A stretch of 38,704 nucleotides of DNA from Thermoplasmata archaeon (GTDB lineage: Archaea; Thermoplasmatota; Thermoplasmata; Sysuiplasmatales; Sysuiplasmataceae): assembly GCA_021796895.1 (NCBI GenBank), contig JAKABN010000003.1, forward strand, positions 1 through 38,704, in the 5' to 3' direction. Under the pieces are notes generated by a model that saw only the letters and a list, made by a program, of their open reading frames with translations, was not told the origin of the DNA and ran no database searches. Positions 1 to 12,979 of the stretch are shown here, in pieces. Position 1 is the first letter of the stretch, and each line of letters starts with the position of its first letter. Made by a program: the position numbers and the translations under genes.

Positions 1-1224
1 AGACAGCGCTCACTCCTGATTTCATCCTCGGGGGGTTTCTTCATATGGGGCATCGTGGCCTCGATGGCCCCTCTTTCGCTGTCCTGGCCTTTCGTCAATG
101 GCAGCGATCCTCTGGTGAGGGTGCTCGTCCTCTCCGCCGGTCCGGCAGGGTTGCTCGCAGGGAACTTCATAATGGGCCTGCTGTCGGATGCGTTCGGCAG
201 GCGGAGAATATTCATCGCGACGATGGCGATGTACGGCATAGGCATAGTGCTGATTTCCATCGCCACGAAATTCCCGCTGCTGCTCGCAGGCGTGGTCGTG
301 TCGTCATTTGGCGTTGGCGGGGAAGAGGCGCCATCGCTTGCGCTCATTGCAGAAGATGTGCCGGTGAAGCAGCGCGGCAGGCTGCTGACACTGATTCCAA
401 ACTTTAACAACATAGGCAGTGCATTTGCAGCAGCGTTCTTCCTTTTCTCTGTCTCGGGCGCGGTGTTCATAGAACGGGCATATCTGCTGGTGTCATCCCT
501 CGCAATCATGGCACTCCTTGTTTTCACGAGAATGAAGATGCCGGAATCGTTCCGGTGGCTGCATTCCAGAGGAAGGGAAGAAGATGCGGAGAACGAGAAG
601 AGTGGACTCAACATAGGACCGGAAGGAGAGTCTGTGAGCCTTCCACCCCTGTGGAAGAGTTACATACTGCTCAGCGTACTCGGCGTTTCCCAGTTCCTGA
701 CATTCGGCCTCATGGCTTTCGTCCTGGGTCCTGATGAATTTCCATCCCAGACGGCACTGATAATTTTCGTTGCACTCGCGGGGGCCTCGATCAGCGGTTT
801 CGTGGCGGCGCCGCTCGTTTCGAGAGGGAGGAGAAGCTACACACTTATTTCATTCGGTGGCGGATTTGTCACGATTGTCGCCATTCTGATTGCGTTCAAC
901 AGCCTTTCAAACGAGTACGTGTTTCTGCCGCTTCTTTTCCTGAACATGGCATTCAGCGAATTTGCCTGGGCGGCGCGCACCACGCTGGAGCCGGAACTTT
1001 TTCCCACGGCCATTCGCGGAACGGGTATCGGTCTCGTCAGGGTTGTTCCCATCATTGCCTACATCGCGAGCATTGTGCTGCTGAGCAATACGGGCCTCTT
1101 CGACTTTGTCCTCATAAACGTGATTCTGTGGGGAGTGGGCCTTGCCGCTGCCACATACTGGTATTTCCGCGGTGTCGAGACGAGCAACATCAGCCCGGAT
1201 TTCAAGGGAGCAGACAATGTCTGA
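1..1224 (+). CDS. MFS transporter, first of a tandem pair (5' end outside window)
   Basis: Major facilitator superfamily permease, integral membrane. The frame is open from base 1, and its first residues (RQRSLLISSSGGFFIWGI) align with residues ~30-50 of the next gene, so roughly 30 N-terminal residues lie upstream; the in-frame GTG at 55 is not the true start. The loop 2-3 motif appears as GLLSDAFGRRR, the MFS motif-A pattern (GxxxDxxGRR). The remaining ~400 residues contain repeated 20-residue hydrophobic segments separated by a charged central loop (around residues 180-205), as in a 12-helix MFS protein. It overlaps the second permease by 8 bp and shares with it FGxGGEE, GPxEFP and RGTGIG motifs, so the two arose by duplication. 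Operon linkage to thiD/thiE suggests transport of thiamine or a precursor; that substrate is inference only. Confidence 0.85.
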   Translation, partial: RQRSLLISSSGGFFIWGIVASMAPLSLSWPFVNGSDPLVRVLVLSAGPAGLLAGNFIMGLLSDAFGRRRIFIATMAMYGIGIVLISIATKFPLLLAGVVVSSFGVGGEEAPSLALIAEDVPVKQRGRLLTLIPNFNNIGSAFAAAFFLFSVSGAVFIERAYLLVSSLAIMALLVFTRMKMPESFRWLHSRGREEDAENEKSGLNIGPEGESVSLPPLWKSYILLSVLGVSQFLTFGLMAFVLGPDEFPSQTALIIFVALAGASISGFVAAPLVSRGRRSYTLISFGGGFVTIVAILIAFNSLSNEYVFLPLLFLNMAFSEFAWAARTTLEPELFPTAIRGTGIGLVRVVPIIAYIASIVLLSNTGLFDFVLINVILWGVGLAAATYWYFRGVETSNISPDFKGADNV

Positions 1225-2464
1225 AGCGGATGCACACGGGCGCCAGCCCGTCGAGGGCGGATACCGGGAATTGAAATATCATCTCGACGGAGCCGGATGG
1301 GGACGTTCCCATTCACTGGTATTCATCACACTTTCTGCGAGCCTGTTCGTCTGGGGCGTGGTTCTGGCTGTCGGACCCCTTGTGATTACATGGCCGGTCG
1401 TGACGGCTTCATCAGTGCTGTATGTGCTCGTGGCCGCGCCCTCCGGCCTGCTTGCGGGCAACCTGGTCATGGGTATCCTGGCAGATCGCGTTGGAAGAAA
1501 GAAATCGTTCATCATCACGCTCATCCTGTCAATCGCCGGCCTGTCTGGAATACTGCTCTCAGGCAACGTCCTGCTTCTGGTAATGTCCCTGTTCCTGACA
1601 GAATTCGGATTCGGCGGAGAAGAGACAGTATCGCTTGCACTGATATCGGAACTCTTTCCAATAAAATACCGCGGAATGGCCCTTGTAGGATCGACGAATT
1701 TTGCAAATGTCGGCGCCATGCTCGTGGCGTTCGCGTTCATTGTTTCACCCTTCTCCGTTGCGGACGAAAAAGTCATGATTGCAATAATGGCCGGGGCGGG
1801 GCTGGGCATAGCCCTTATCAGCAGATTGCTGGTACCCGAAAGTCTCAGATGGTCCTTCATCAGGGAGAAAGGCATGGAGGGGGCACAGCCGGCTGCACGG
1901 AAGAGTGTATTCGGTTTTGTAATGCTGGCGACAATTGCGAGCACGATAATACTGACATATGCTCTTCTGGCTCTTGTCCTGGGACCCTTTGAATTTCCGC
2001 ACCTTGTCGGCACCATAGTATTCACTTACAACCTGGGAGAATCTGTTGCGGGTTTTGCCGCGATTTTCATTGTATCGGTGCTGTCGAGAAAGGGCTTTGC
2101 CCTTTTCGCCTTCGCGGGCGGCTTTGTCACCATGCTGCCGTTCATCGCATACTACTACATCGCTCCCTCTTCGCTGCTCTTCTTCCTGTCCCTGCTGTTC
2201 ATCAACGGTGCGTTCGGAGAATTCGGATGGGCGGCAAGGAACATGATGCAGCCGGAACTCTTCACAACGAAACTCAGGGGCACGGGGATAGGGGCAGTCA
2301 GGAGCATAGGATATGTGCTTTACATAGCCACCATTTTTCTTGTATACGGCTTTACACCGGTGGAGTACATTTACTACGCAACTCTGATATGGCTTGCCGG
2401 CCTGATCGCCGCCGCTGCATGGTATGTGAAGGGAAGAGAAACTTCAGGTGAGAGCCTTGATTAG
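1217..2464 (+). CDS. MFS transporter, second of a tandem pair
   Basis: Major facilitator superfamily permease of 415 residues with about 12 hydrophobic segments. Motif A reads GILADRVGRKKS (residues ~82-93). ATG 1217 is chosen because an AAGGGAG ribosome-binding site lies 6 nt upstream and the start overlaps the previous stop by 8 bp (ATGTCTGA); the longer in-frame extension into the previous gene has no such support. It is clearly paralogous to the upstream permease along its whole length. The stop is 22 bp before thiD, with a strong GGAGAGGAGG site in between, so these genes are probably co-transcribed. MFS genes linked to thiamine genes or TPP riboswitches have been predicted as thiamine-related transporters in Thermoplasma (from memory). 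The leader of this operon is outside the window, so a riboswitch cannot be checked. Confidence 0.88.
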   Translation: MSEADAHGRQPVEGGYRELKYHLDGAGWGRSHSLVFITLSASLFVWGVVLAVGPLVITWPVVTASSVLYVLVAAPSGLLAGNLVMGILADRVGRKKSFIITLILSIAGLSGILLSGNVLLLVMSLFLTEFGFGGEETVSLALISELFPIKYRGMALVGSTNFANVGAMLVAFAFIVSPFSVADEKVMIAIMAGAGLGIALISRLLVPESLRWSFIREKGMEGAQPAARKSVFGFVMLATIASTIILTYALLALVLGPFEFPHLVGTIVFTYNLGESVAGFAAIFIVSVLSRKGFALFAFAGGFVTMLPFIAYYYIAPSSLLFFLSLLFINGAFGEFGWAARNMMQPELFTTKLRGTGIGAVRSIGYVLYIATIFLVYGFTPVEYIYYATLIWLAGLIAAAAWYVKGRETSGESLD

Positions 2465-2486
2465 AATCGGAGAGGAGGTTCATTGA

Positions 2487-3281
2487 GTGCGTGGACGCGC
2501 GCTGACTGTAGGAGGATCTGACTCTGGCGGGGGAGCCGGGGTGCAGGCGGATCTGAAGACGTTCAATGCCCTTTCAGTGTTCGGAAGTTCGGCCATTGTC
2601 GCCATCACTGCGCAGAACAGCGTGGAGGTATCGGGCATAATGCCGGTTCCCGTCCGCTTTGTGGAGAAGCAGATCGAGGCGGTGCTCGTGGACATAGGCA
2701 CGGATGCCGTGAAGACAGGAATGCTGTACTCGGCGGAAATAATTGAAGCCGTTGCACACAAATTGAAAAAATACGATGTGCGGAACGTGGTGGTTGATCC
2801 TGTCATGGTAGCCAAAACGGGTGCGAGACTCCTCAGAAAGAATGCCGTGGAAACGCTCATGACAGGACTGCTGCCGATTTCGCTGCTTGCCACGCCGAAC
2901 ATACCCGAAGCGGAGATTATGGCCGACATGAAAATAACGTCGGAAGAGGACATGCGGAGCGCCGCACGAAAAATAAACGAGACGACCGGTGCGAACGTGC
3001 TTGTGAAAGGAGGACACGGTGCCGGCAGCCGTTCGACTGATGTCTTCTTCAGCGGCTCCGGGTACCGCAGTTTCTCCGGTGAAAGGATCAAAACGCGGAA
3101 CACACACGGGACAGGGGATACGCTTTCCGCAGCCATAACCGCATATCTTGCCAGGGGCAGGAACATTGAGGATGCGGTGAGTGCGGGCAGGGAGTTCCTG
3201 CAGTCGGCCGTAGAGCACTCCTTTCCAGTGGGCAGGGGTTTCGGCAGCCTCGATCACTCATGGAGGTTGAATGATGACTGA
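2487..3281 (+). CDS. thiD: hydroxymethylpyrimidine (phosphate) kinase, ThiD
   Basis: Phosphorylates hydroxymethylpyrimidine and its phosphate to HMP-PP for thiamine synthesis; ribokinase-like fold, cytosolic, 264 residues, the normal length for stand-alone ThiD. The N-terminal substrate loop GGSDSGGGAG (residues 9-18), the DPVMVAKTG segment and the C-terminal anion-hole motif HGTGDTLSAA are visible. In the last motif Asp211 stands where bacterial ThiD usually has a catalytic Cys (GTGCT); Asp is the usual base in the wider ribokinase family. There is no fused ThiN domain, unlike many archaeal ThiD proteins. The GTG start is fixed by an in-frame TGA immediately before it and by GGAGAGGAGGTT 6 nt upstream. 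The 3' end overlaps the next gene. Confidence 0.93.
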   Translation: MRGRALTVGGSDSGGGAGVQADLKTFNALSVFGSSAIVAITAQNSVEVSGIMPVPVRFVEKQIEAVLVDIGTDAVKTGMLYSAEIIEAVAHKLKKYDVRNVVVDPVMVAKTGARLLRKNAVETLMTGLLPISLLATPNIPEAEIMADMKITSEEDMRSAARKINETTGANVLVKGGHGAGSRSTDVFFSGSGYRSFSGERIKTRNTHGTGDTLSAAITAYLARGRNIEDAVSAGREFLQSAVEHSFPVGRGFGSLDHSWRLNDD

Positions 3282-4329
3282 AGAGTTCGGTAAAATAACG
3301 CGTGATTTTTTCGACAGGAACATAAGAGAGAAGCTGGGGCACAGAAGGAAAGAGGTGCTCGTGCCTCCCGGAAACGGCGTCGATGTGGGAATAGTCAGGC
3401 TGCACAGAGACCTTGTCATGGCAATCACCACAGATCCTTTCTACATTGTGCCGGCGTACGGATGGCAGAAGGCGGCGTGGTTTGCTTTCCACATCATCGC
3501 TTCAGATCTGTGCACATCCGGTCTGCCGCCGGAGTACCTCTCCGTGGATCTCAACCTGCCGCTGTCCATAACAGACGACGAGTTCAGGCAGCTATGGAAC
3601 ACTGTTGACAGGGAGGGAAAAAAATACGGAGTCTCCGTGGTAACGGGCCACACCGCAAGGTACGAAGGCACGGATTATCCCATGGTGGGAGGGGCCACCA
3701 TGATAGGCACGGGTCCGGCGAACGGATATGTCACATCCGCAATGGCAAAGACTGGCGATGCGGTAATCGTTACCAAGACAGCGGGGCTTGAAGCAACCGC
3801 GATTTTCTCCCATCTGTTTCCCGGGCACGTAGAGAAGAATCTGGGAAAAGACATTCTCAGAAGGGGACAGCGGCTCTTTGGCAGCATGTCGACTGTGAAC
3901 GAGTCGCTGGCTGCTGCATCGTTCGGACTCAGGAAAAACGGAGTTACTTCGATGCACGACGCAACAGAGGGCGGTGTTCTGGGCGCGCTGTATGAAGTGG
4001 CCGAAGCTTCAGGAAAGGGAATAACGGTCAATGCAGAAAAAGTACCGGTGAACAGCGAGGTGCGCGAAATTTGCGGATTGTTCGGAATGCGGCCGCTTCA
4101 CTCGATAAGCGAAGGATCGCTGATAATGACCGTCAGAAGGGACAGGTGCGAAGATCTGCTGTCAATGCTGAAATCCCGCAGGATAAAAGCGACAGAGGTG
4201 GGCAGCATAACCGCTGCCGGCATGGGCAAGAGAGTAGTCACTGCAGGCAGGACGGATGAGCTCATTCCACCGGGCAAGGATGATTTCTGGAAGGCAATAC
4301 ACACTGCAGCGAAGGAGCGGCTAAGTTGA
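3274..4329 (+). CDS. AIR synthase/HypE-like protein in thiamine operon, possible thiamine-phosphate kinase
   Basis: PurM (AIR synthase) superfamily ATP-binding protein, 351 residues. The HypE-like pattern is visible: ITTDPF near residue 53, a TGHT segment near 125 (the AGDT region of HypE), and the C-terminal half beginning MHDATEGGVLGALYE, then EVPV-type and SEGSL motifs. The C-terminal PRIC cysteine tail needed for HypE carbamoyl transfer is absent (it ends KERLS), and no other hydrogenase maturation gene is near. ThiL, the thiamine-monophosphate kinase, belongs to the same superfamily, and this gene sits between thiD and thiE with overlaps of 8 and 4 bp. TMP kinase is therefore a reasonable but unproven role. 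ATG 3274 is preferred over ATG 3271 because GGAGGT lies 6 nt upstream of it rather than 3. Confidence 0.8.
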   Translation: MTEEFGKITRDFFDRNIREKLGHRRKEVLVPPGNGVDVGIVRLHRDLVMAITTDPFYIVPAYGWQKAAWFAFHIIASDLCTSGLPPEYLSVDLNLPLSITDDEFRQLWNTVDREGKKYGVSVVTGHTARYEGTDYPMVGGATMIGTGPANGYVTSAMAKTGDAVIVTKTAGLEATAIFSHLFPGHVEKNLGKDILRRGQRLFGSMSTVNESLAAASFGLRKNGVTSMHDATEGGVLGALYEVAEASGKGITVNAEKVPVNSEVREICGLFGMRPLHSISEGSLIMTVRRDRCEDLLSMLKSRRIKATEVGSITAAGMGKRVVTAGRTDELIPPGKDDFWKAIHTAAKERLS

Positions 4330-4937
4330 GTTACAGCGGACTGTATCTCGTGACTCCGGATTACACGCCCGGAAATTTCTTCGATATTGTAGAGGGCGCT
4401 ATCGCGGGCGGCGTCGACCTTCTTCAGTACAGGGACAAGAGCAATACGAAACAGCTCAGGACGGAGGTTGCCGAAAAACTACGCTCGATTTGCAGCAGCA
4501 GCGGCATTCCTTTTATCGTAAATGACGACATCGACCTGGCGGTGATATCCGGCGCTGACGGAGTACATATAGGAACGGGTGACACGCCGTACCCTGCAGC
4601 CAGAGAGAAAGCGGGAAAGCGCACAGTAGGCGTTTCTGTCTACGGAGACACTGAAATGGCCCTGCAGTATGAGGGACTGGGTGCCGATTATGTTTCGTTC
4701 GGTCCATTCTTCCATACAGACTCCAAAGAGGGCGCCGGGATTTATGACATCGGAGTACTTGAAGAAGCCCGCTCCAGGCTGAGCGTGCCGGTATTCGCAA
4801 TCGGCGGAATCACGGAGGAAAATATTTCGGAAGTCGTTGCTTTCGGCATTGACGGGATAGCGGTAATCTCGGCCGTCTTCCGTTCCACTGACCCGGAATC
4901 GGCGGCGAGAAGGCTCAAGAGGCTGATGAGTAAATGA
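4326..4937 (+). CDS. thiE: thiamine-phosphate synthase, ThiE
   Basis: Joins HMP-PP and thiazole phosphate to thiamine monophosphate; TIM-barrel enzyme of 203 residues, the usual length. Family motifs are in order: LLQYRDKSN (residues ~32-40) for the pyrimidine pyrophosphate, FIVNDDIDLA, GVHIG, the FGPFFHTDSKEG phosphate loop, and FAIGGI followed by GIAVISAVF. The TTG start overlaps the TGA of the upstream gene in a TTGA junction, with AAGGAG 8 nt before it. Last gene of the MFS-MFS-thiD-AIRS-thiE operon. No thiazole synthase gene is present here, so the thiazole may be made elsewhere or salvaged. Confidence 0.95.
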   Translation: MSYSGLYLVTPDYTPGNFFDIVEGAIAGGVDLLQYRDKSNTKQLRTEVAEKLRSICSSSGIPFIVNDDIDLAVISGADGVHIGTGDTPYPAAREKAGKRTVGVSVYGDTEMALQYEGLGADYVSFGPFFHTDSKEGAGIYDIGVLEEARSRLSVPVFAIGGITEENISEVVAFGIDGIAVISAVFRSTDPESAARRLKRLMSK

Positions 4938-5055
4938 GAGAGGCACCACATCGTGTTCTGAACGTTCCTCAGGCATCGCGGCGATGACTGCAGGAAGGGC
5001 CGTGATCAGGAAGGCAAAACAGCGAATTGCGGCAGCATTTCAGCCTGTTCGGCTG

Positions 5056-6284: not shown

Positions 6285-9200
6285 TTGGGAAGAAAGGAAG
6301 ACAATATTGCAAAGGCTCAGGCCATAATGAAGGATCCGAAATTCATAAGGAATATCGGAACTGCGGCGCACATCGATCACGGGAAGTGCATGACCGGCGA
6401 GGCGATGGTATTTACCAGCGGAGCATGGATAGAGGCGAAAGCGCTTTACTCGAAGTATGCGGCGGGACAGCCCGTTTTCTCCGACAGGGATCAGACCGTA
6501 TATGCGGCTGGTGGCGAGGAATGTACAATATCGCTCAACACTTCCGGCATGATACTTGAGAAGAGGAGAATCACGCACGTCTGGAAGATCAGAAACGATG
6601 AGCGGCTGGTCAGGATTGTTCCGCGTTCAGGCAGAACGGTGACAGTCACACCAGAGCACAAATTCATTGTCTACAGGAAAGATTCCATCCAGGAAGTCAA
6701 ATCTTCGGAACTGGTAATAGGCGACAGGCTGATTGTCCCGACTCGAGTGGACATTGAAGAGTCGGTGATAGACGACAGCGTGTTCACAGGACTCACGGGA
6801 ATAAGCACAGCTCCCGCGGCGCTGAAGGAGGCTGCGGCGGCAATCAGCTCTGCTGTTTCGAAAGCAGAGGAAACCGGGCTGCTGGGCATCCTGTTCGGAC
6901 ACGGCGTCAGCGCCGGTATATTCACGAGGCTGGAAAAAGGAACGATGTTCGCACTGTCCGCCGCAATACTGGACACAATGGATTTCGGGCGGAACACTTC
7001 GCAGCAGAGAAAAGTGCTCGGAGTCATTGCGCTTTCCATGCTCAGGTACGGCCACCGGTTCATGCTTGATCCTGCTGATCCGGACTTCATTTATGAGATG
7101 GACAGGCTCAGAGGCATATTGAGCGGTGATTGCGACGATGCGGGCGGCGTGAACGGCGGCGCCGGTGTGCTGATGATGGCCGGAGACCGTTCTGTCTCTG
7201 TTCTGGTTCCGGGACTTCCTTCGACGCTTTCGGTTGTCGACATCGAGGGAATAGAGAGCGCGTACGATGAGTTTGTATTTGACTTCTCGGTGGATGAGAC
7301 ACACAATCTTCTTGTTGAGGGCCTCATCATACACAACACGACTCTGAGTGACAATCTGATAGCCGGCGCAGGCATGATGAGCGAGGAACTGGCCGGCAAA
7401 CAGCTCCTCCTTGACTATGATGAACAGGAGCAGGCAAGGGGAATTACCATAAACGCGGCCAACGCCTCAATGGTGCAGGAGATAGACGGGGAACACTATC
7501 TCATCAATCTCATCGATACTCCGGGACACGTCGACTTCGGCGGCGACGTGACGAGGGCGATGAGGGCCATTGACGGTGTCATAATACTTGTGGATGCCGT
7601 AGAACAGGTCATGCCTCAGACAGAGACGGTCATCAGGCAGGCGCTGAGAGAGAGGGTCCGTCCCATACTGTTCATAAACAAGGTCGACCGCCTGATCAAT
7701 GAGCTGAAGGTCACTCCCGAGGACATGCAGAAGAGATTCGTGAGCATAATCAATGACGTCAACAAGAGGATCCATGCCGCGGCACCCGAGGAACTCAAGA
7801 AACAGTGGGGTGTCCGTGTAGAGGACGGGACAGTGCTGTTCGGCAGCGCCTACAACAACTGGGCCATTTCTGCAGCATATATGAAGAAGTCGGGCATAAC
7901 TTTTGCCGATATTTACAATTACCTGAGCAGAGGGGATCAGAAGACTCTAGCACAGAGAATACCACTGCACAAGGTGGTCCTGGAATCGGTAGTAAAGAAT
8001 CATCCCAGCCCCATCGTTGCGCAGCAGCTGAGGATACCGGCAATCTGGAAAGGGGATCTGACTTCCGAAGTCGGCACTTCGATGCTCAATGTGGAACCTG
8101 ACGGCCCGACGATCTTCATGGTCACCAAGATAATCATAGATCCGCATGCCGGTGAGGTTGCCGTCGGAAGACTCTTTTCCGGTACACTGAAGCGCGGACT
8201 GGAGCTCTATGTGTCCGGGATGCACCAGCCGAACAGAGTGCAGACAGTCGCCCTGTCTGTCGGAGCGGACAGGATAACTGTTGATGAAATCAGGGCGGGC
8301 AATATAGCAGCTGTCACGGGCCTCAAGGACGCTATAGCGGGGTCGACAGTCTCGTCTGTGCAGGGAATCGAACCGTTCGAAAGGATGGTTCATTACAGTG
8401 AACCGGTGGTGACCGTTGCCATCGAGGCGAAGCAGATGAAGGATCTTCCGAAGCTCATAGAAGTGCTGAGGAACGTCGGAAAGGCCGATCCATCAATAAC
8501 GGTGGAGATTAACCAGGAGACCGGTGAACACCTCCTCTCGGGAATGGGCGAACTGCATCTCGAGGTAACTCAGTACAGGATAGTCAATGACTACAAGTGT
8601 GAAATCAATGCATCCAAGCCGATAGTCGTTTACAGGGAGAGTGTCGAGGGGCAGGGTGGTCCGTTTGAGGGTAAGTCTCCGAACAAGCACAACAGGTTCT
8701 ACGTCGAGGTTGAACCGCTGGAACAGAGCGTCGTGGATGCCATCACTGGCGGCGAAATCAAGACGGAGGGCAGAATAAAGGATTCGAAGGCACTCGCAAA
8801 AAAGCTGCAGGAACTGGGGATGGAGCGGGACGAGGCCAGGGGAGTGCAGATGTTTTATGGCACAAATGTGCTGATTGATTACACGAAGGGCATTCAGTAT
8901 CTCTTTGAGACGATGGAGCTGTGCAAGCAGTCGTACGAGGAGGCGATGCGCCTCGGTCCCCTTGCGCAGGAGAGGGTCATGAATCTCAAGGTCAAGATTG
9001 TCGATGCCAAACTGCACGAGGACAGCATACACAGGGGACCAGCCCAGGTCATTCCGGCGACCCGTTCGGCAATATATGGCGCGATGGCCGTTGCCGGAAG
9101 GGTGCTCTACGAACCGGTACAGAAAATATACATCAACGTGCCGCCGGACGTGATGGGCGATGCCATCAGGGAGATTCAGCAGCGGCGCGGGGTTATACTG

Positions 9201-12883: not shown

Positions 12884-12979
12884 GCGAGGATGGCCCAGCC
12901 CGGTAAGGCGATGGATTGCTAAGCGACGCAAATATCCATTGTCCGTAAGGACTCGGGGGTTCAAATCCCCCTCCTCGCG
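12884..12979 (+). tRNA. tRNA-Ser (anticodon GCU) with a 12-nt intron
   Basis: Class II tRNA. The 7-bp acceptor stem GCGAGGA/TCCTCGC pairs perfectly, the T arm is GGGGG-TTCAAAT-CCCCC, and the long variable arm is GTCC-GTAA-GGAC, as in serine tRNAs. The anticodon stem ATGGA (12911-12915) pairs with TCCAT (12935-12939) only if the intervening 12922-12933 is an intron; the spliced loop is then TTGCTAA with anticodon GCT at 12918-12920. CCA is not encoded. A37 next to U36 makes it a substrate for t6A modification. The downstream methylthiotransferase gene begins within 64 bp. Confidence 0.93.
12922..12933 (+). other. tRNA-Ser intron (12 nt, position 37/38)
   Basis: The precursor can form a bulge-helix-bulge: central helix TTGC/GCAA, 5' bulge TAA and 3' bulge ATA, cut after the second base of each. 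That removes exactly 12 nt. The inner part is reduced to one G-C pair and a three-base loop, so it is a minimal substrate for the tRNA splicing endonuclease. Confidence 0.85.

Follow-up and report, generated by a model that had tools for sequence, protein, structure and literature searches.

A HypE-Like Protein Encoded Between thiD and thiE in a Thermoplasmata Archaeon: A Candidate Thiazole Kinase in the Place of ThiM

Introduction

A stretch of 38,704 nucleotides from a Thermoplasmata archaeon (hereafter the window) carries a gene for a HypE-like protein between two thiamine genes, thiD and thiE, which raises the question of which reaction such a protein may catalyze there. A preliminary description of this DNA proposed mainly that the protein, termed HypEL here, replaces the thiamine-phosphate kinase ThiL, a member of the same superfamily whose gene is missing from the operon, and alternatively that it acts on another thiamine intermediate. 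Among open-licence papers, none on the HypEL family in thiamine metabolism was found. In the following, G and L with a number denote genomes and loci, and f with a number denotes families of the class sample (100 genomes); G000 is the archaeal metagenome-assembled genome (MAG) to which the window belongs (78.8% complete).

The HypEL Gene and Its Genomic Context

The genes at the start of the window are the following:

55–1224, forward strand: MFS1 transporter; its 88% ortholog in the congener G003 lies directly upstream of rps12
1142–2464, forward strand: MFS2 transporter, probably starting at ATG 1217; shares 45% identity with the MFS protein encoded 5′ of thiD-HypEL-thiE in L076
2487–3281, forward strand: thiD, HMP/HMP-P kinase, GTG start; TIGR00097 350 bits, above cut-off
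3271–4329, forward strand: HypEL, HypE-like protein of the AIR-synthase superfamily, 352 amino acids; from the open reading frame, Pfam and profile scores, AlphaFold2, and Foldseek
4326–4937, forward strand: thiE, thiamine-phosphate synthase, TTG start; TIGR00693 201 bits, above cut-off
1226–5015, forward strand: 3.8-kb block MFS2-thiD-HypEL-thiE, delimited by blastn of the window against L178 of G003

HypEL may start at either of two ATG codons (3271 and 3274), both 3′ of GGAGGT; its overlap with thiD amounts to 11 or 8 nt, respectively, and its TGA (4327–4329) shares a 4-nt overlap with the TTG start of thiE. The open reading frame, the profile scores, and these overlaps bear out the earlier account of a HypE-like protein encoded between both genes and overlapping them. 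On comparative grounds HypEL is a conserved gene and not a chance reading frame, because close orthologs (46–58% identity) with the same neighbors occur in other genomes. The nearest relatives are Thermoplasmata records, and other MAGs of Thermoplasmata encode the closest of these (58% identity) within thiD-HypEL-thiE operons; one of these operons is preceded by an MFS2 homolog and has a TenA-like gene in its vicinity. Homologs of MFS1 occur near thiE in L204 and near HypEL in L088. No hydrogenase gene was detected among the window genes scanned, up to 33 kb, and the protein ends in KERLS, in agreement with the preliminary description, which noted the lack of both hydrogenase neighbors and a C-terminal cysteine tail. 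No TPP riboswitch was detected in the window or the genome.

In the congener G003, the corresponding site between MFS1 and rps12 contains approximately 205 bp in place of the block. ThiE is missing from all three congeners and from four other members of family f1, to which G000 belongs. Since G003 lacks the block and ThiE is absent from these congeners and family members, the block was either gained locally or lost in all other members of the family; gain as one cassette is the simpler explanation. Misbinning of the contig was considered and ruled out: elongation factor EF-2 is 94% identical to that of G003 and the order MFS1-rps12-rps7-EF2 is common to both genomes.

The EF-2 gene of the window is interrupted at 6387–7337 by a 317-aa intein (Pfam intein splicing domain) that follows the P-loop residues GHGK. 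EF-2 reading frames of approximately 1,050 aa in G001–G007 suggest the same intein, while those of the relatives in f17 and f23 are uninterrupted (736–748 aa). At 12884–12979 Rfam recognizes a 96-nt tRNA that ARAGORN missed; this archaeal tRNA may contain an intron or be a variant form.

Protein Family, Fold, and Motifs

Both the N- and C-terminal AIRS domains of HypEL score above the Pfam gathering scores (PF00586, 42 bits; PF02769, 85 bits), which places the protein in the PurM/AIRS superfamily. Its scores for the individual enzyme families stay below the respective cut-offs, i.e., 102.7 bits versus 252 for HypE (TIGR02124), the best family score, 91.5 versus 184 for ThiL (TIGR01379), and 51 versus 125 for SelD (TIGR00476). 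With the AlphaFold2 model (pLDDT 89.4), the best Foldseek matches are HypE (3vyt) and ThiL (3c9u/3c9r), about equal. As Pfam and AlphaFold/Foldseek both indicate the AIRS fold, HypEL falls outside the ThiM family (TIGR00694), which has a ribokinase-like fold. In databases the protein is presumably filed under PurM-like1 of the CDD, the archaeal subgroup of AIR-synthase-related proteins, to which no function is assigned.

The only cysteines of HypEL are residues 80, 267, and 292; the N-terminal catalytic Cys/Sec of SelD is therefore not present, the first Cys being residue 80. In an alignment of 113 proteins, three motifs (residues counted from ATG 3274) correspond to ThiL motifs:

3373–3393, forward strand: loop N34-G35-V36-D37-V38-G39-I40, the counterpart of GDD(A/C)(A/S)V in ThiL; the second Asp is kept, the first is Val
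3646–3663, forward strand: GHTARY, residues 125–130, with His126 in place of the Asp of ThiL (GGDT)
3952–3975, forward strand: M-H-D-A-T-E-G-G, residues 227–234, in which HD and E are invariant in the family; ThiL has D-I-(T/S)-D-G

Where ThiL has GDD(A/C), GGDT, D-I-(T/S)-D-G, and GG(E/D)DYEL, HypEL thus reads NGVDVGI, TGHT, HDATEGG, and ISEG.

Distribution of HypEL and Its Association With ThiE

All 11 class genomes with window-type HypEL possess ThiE, compared with 42 of the 100 genomes overall (hypergeometric 3e-5, phylogeny ignored). HypEL and ThiE vary together in all three families in which HypEL varies: G000 has both and G001–G007 have neither (f1), seven genomes have both and G067 neither (f17), and two genomes have both and G089 neither (f23). 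Across archaea and several bacterial phyla, HypEL is found in operons of the types thiD-HypEL-thiE, HypEL-thiE, thiC-HypEL-thiD-thiE (Melioribacter, Kryptoniota), and HypEL-tenA-thiE-thiL-thiD (a deltaproteobacterium, L105), and in the HypEL family tree such operons appear repeatedly, on different branches. These comparisons strengthen the predicted thiamine link, and the thiamine operons and the co-occurrence with ThiE support the alternative put forward earlier, i.e., that HypEL may act on another thiamine intermediate.

Relatives of HypEL were found on at least 586 bacterial and archaeal sequence stretches, and this widespread group, a subfamily within the PurM/HypE/ThiL/SelD superfamily, appears to have a single function. 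In approximately 17 of the best 80 relatives a second neighborhood is seen, with genes for Rrf2/IscR-type regulators, cysteine synthase, cysteine desulfurase, IscU, MnmA, and ThiI-like and NadA-like proteins (the NadA-like label rests on reading of the sequence only). A division into two functional classes by neighborhood, thiamine versus sulfur, was rejected for the window-type clade, because the examined invariant positions are identical in members of both contexts; the sulfur-context members form subclades, not a separate family. We read them as one enzyme in two settings, which may also have a sulfur-related role.

Twelve loci (L080, L081, L089, L094, L097, L126, L128, L139, L143, L144, L146, and L150) from WOR-3, Chloroflexi, Zixibacteria, and others represent these sulfur/Fe-S clusters, with genes for Rrf2, CysK, IscS, IscU, MnmA, ThiI-like, NadA-like, and NIL proteins; 11 of the 12 genomes have Thi4. 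In the archaeal family f7 (L060–L065, L073), thiE and canonical thiL share an operon with the gene for a distant HypE-like protein, located 3′ of a gene whose large product contains HTH and TPR domains (Pfam, L061 only), and here Thi4 was present in all six genomes tested.

Coexistence of HypEL With ThiL

The reading of HypEL as a non-canonical thiamine-phosphate kinase replacing ThiL starts from the shared superfamily and from G000 itself: canonical thiL was found neither in the operon, as described earlier, nor anywhere in the assembled genome, for which the preliminary description had proposed a search. Taken alone, this result would favor replacement, but the relatives do have ThiL. Within f1 it occurs in canonical form in all seven other genomes, including the three congeners (234–270 bits), and it is likewise present in each of the ten class members that encode close orthologs (46–52% identity), in three of them slightly under the curated cut-off. 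Outside the class sample ThiL was detected in 43 of 50 HypEL carriers, sampled from the best 80 relative loci, 38 of them above the cut-off, three with partial sequences, and two with full-length proteins just under the cut-off. The latter two belong to G100 and G101, which, like G102, carry the closest orthologs; all three have ThiL. Moreover, thiL shares one operon with a HypEL gene in L105, L108, L138, and f7. The seven carriers in which ThiL was not found include two Melioribacter MAGs with thiC-HypEL-thiD-thiE (G103 and G105; L077 and L082) and could be taken to favor replacement, but the genomes without detected ThiL are fragmented MAGs. Because all congeners have ThiL, the missing thiL of G000 is better explained by the incompleteness of the MAG.

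With this coexistence in the great majority of carriers, the shared operons, and the absence of the GDDA, GGDT, and GG(E/D)DYEL motifs, the main claim of the preliminary description does not hold: for the family as a whole ThiL replacement is untenable, for the species of G000 it is unlikely, and we consider it the least probable of the functions weighed here. The combination that had been seen as speaking against replacement, a canonical thiL together with carriers lacking thiamine synthesis, was encountered only in its first half: relatives have ThiL, but within the class the window-type gene is confined to ThiE-positive genomes.

A Candidate Kinase for the Missing Thiazole Step

ThiM was absent from all 75 genomes tested among the HypEL genomes and their relatives. 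Twelve class genomes do have ThiM; each of them also has ThiE, and none carries window-type HypEL (mutual exclusion p ~0.013, before correction for phylogeny). The thiM gene mostly overlaps or abuts thiE (f4, f6, f11, f16, and f22), the place that HypEL occupies elsewhere. Judged by position and distribution, HypEL would fit the role of ThiM: the gene lies beside thiE/thiD and ThiM is absent from the carriers. In the operon of L105, with tenA, thiE, thiL, and thiD, the usual set of salvage genes lacks thiM.

Other sources of thiazole phosphate are likewise scarce. Neither Thi4 nor true ThiG was found in the 11 window-type genomes of the class, seven of which are 99% complete, and f17-type genomes have ThiD, ThiE, and ThiL but none of the known sources searched for (ThiM, Thi4, and ThiG). 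Thi4 was not found in any carrier with the archaeal thiD-HypEL-thiE operon or in the thiamine-context bacteria tested, and real ThiG (>300 bits) was present in only eight of 75 genomes tested. Without Thi4 and true ThiG, ThiE of the 11 window-type genomes would have no thiazole phosphate unless a kinase is present, and the position of HypEL between thiD and thiE, i.e., the place of thiM elsewhere, makes it the natural candidate for a thiazole (HET) kinase. Both ThiM and window-type HypEL are absent from at least seven ThiE-positive class genomes (f6, f13, and f2). A thi4 mutant of Haloferax volcanii salvages thiazole, the phosphorylation of which was presumed (PMC4215014); this shows that archaeal thiazole salvage exists but does not identify the enzyme serving it in HypEL genomes.

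Our best explanation, held tentatively and at slightly less than even probability, is that HypEL may take over the role of ThiM as an ATP-dependent hydroxyethylthiazole kinase. In the resulting pathway the MFS proteins would import precursors and ThiD would convert HMP to HMP-PP. HypEL, a non-orthologous replacement of ThiM, would use ATP to convert salvaged 4-methyl-5-hydroxyethylthiazole (HET) or its 2-carboxylate to HET-P. ThiE would then join HMP-PP and HET-P to form TMP, which canonical ThiL, encoded elsewhere, would convert to TPP. We infer the use of ATP from the superfamily; the putative substrate, with the step from operon position to reaction, and the precursor import by the MFS proteins are likewise inferred. 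Several points count against this reading. To our knowledge the PurM-superfamily kinases act on phosphates, amides, or selenide, and none on a primary alcohol. Thi4 is present, in addition to f7, in 13 of 18 sampled carriers with non-thiamine contexts, mostly sulfur clusters, where a thiazole kinase is not required, and ThiM may be rare in many of the carrier phyla regardless. If HypEL is a thiazole kinase, it would supply the step that thiamine salvage lacks in several bacterial phyla and in Thermoplasma-type archaea, and would correct predictions of the B1 precursors required by individual organisms; it would also be the first PurM-superfamily enzyme known to us that acts on a simple alcohol.

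Alternative Functions

A kinase for another B1 compound, most plausibly one that converts salvaged thiamine to TMP for subsequent conversion to TPP by ThiL, is rather unlikely, although it is the alternative to which we give most weight. In the f1 genomes, ThiL is retained together with a HypE-like paralog encoded next to an MFS gene, but ThiE, ThiM, and Thi4 are absent; these genomes would therefore need TMP from imported thiamine. However, ThiE and ThiD, with which the window-type gene is associated, are not needed for intact thiamine, and the f1 paralog forms a separate clade and departs from the window type at several of the invariant positions of the latter. In G000 this second paralog is found at 154–1275 and 1339–2640 of L002 (contig C188), beside an MFS transporter; the pair is kept in the f1 genomes examined (L044–L048 and L050) and possibly serves as thiamine uptake and kinase.

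Somewhat less probable is that HypEL carries out another thiazole step, i.e., activation, cyclization, or hydrolysis of a precursor, possibly in an unrecognized thiazole-forming route. AIR synthase closes an imidazole ring, so the superfamily does include a ring-closing ATP enzyme; G103 and G104 carry thiC, thiD, and thiE without Thi4, ThiG, or ThiM, and the second neighborhood offers cysteine desulfurase, IscU, CysK, and MnmA. Yet HypEL also occurs in genomes with complete Thi4 or ThiG, the thiD-HypEL-thiE operons show no sulfur carrier and no glycine/DXP-using partner, and simple salvage accounts for the data. The more specific version, in which the family would represent a PurM-type ATP-dependent enzyme building or activating thiazole phosphate without ThiG and Thi4, tied to persulfide sulfur in the sulfur-cluster members, is highly improbable. 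Sulfur or selenium activation like that of SelD, with thiophosphate formation common to thiamine and Fe-S/tRNA thiolation clusters, would agree with the sulfur context of 17 of the 80 best loci and with the thiophosphate role proposed for a crenarchaeal SelD-like family (PMC4210487). It is improbable as well, given the lack of a catalytic Cys/Sec near the N terminus, the low SelD score, the many carriers without sulfur genes nearby, and the fact that activated sulfur is not used by ThiE.

Comparison With Known Systems

HypE (TIGR02124; PDB 3vyt, 2z1e, 3vti) is similar to HypEL in its two-domain AIRS fold (Foldseek E 4e-22) and yields the best family score (103 bits), but HypEL stays far under the cut-off of 252, lacks the C-terminal Cys tail and hyp/hydrogenase neighbors, and has His for Asp in the GDT motif. 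The crenarchaeal SelD-like family, reported from Sulfolobales and Thermoproteales only, is another uncharacterized branch of the PurM superfamily with a partly sulfur-related gene context, but carries the catalytic Cys of SelD (PMC4210487) that HypEL lacks. ThiL (TIGR01379; PDB 3c9t, 3c9u) has the same fold (Foldseek E 4e-21), the thiamine neighborhood, and conserved Asp at positions 37, 54, 78, and 229 in common with HypEL, which differs from it in scoring 91 of the 184 bits, in missing the ThiL motifs, and in coexisting with ThiL in one genome or operon. ThiM (TIGR00694) shares with HypEL the operon place beside thiE and, within the class, does not occur in genomes with window-type HypEL; the two would catalyze the same reaction with unrelated folds, that of ThiM being ribokinase-like.
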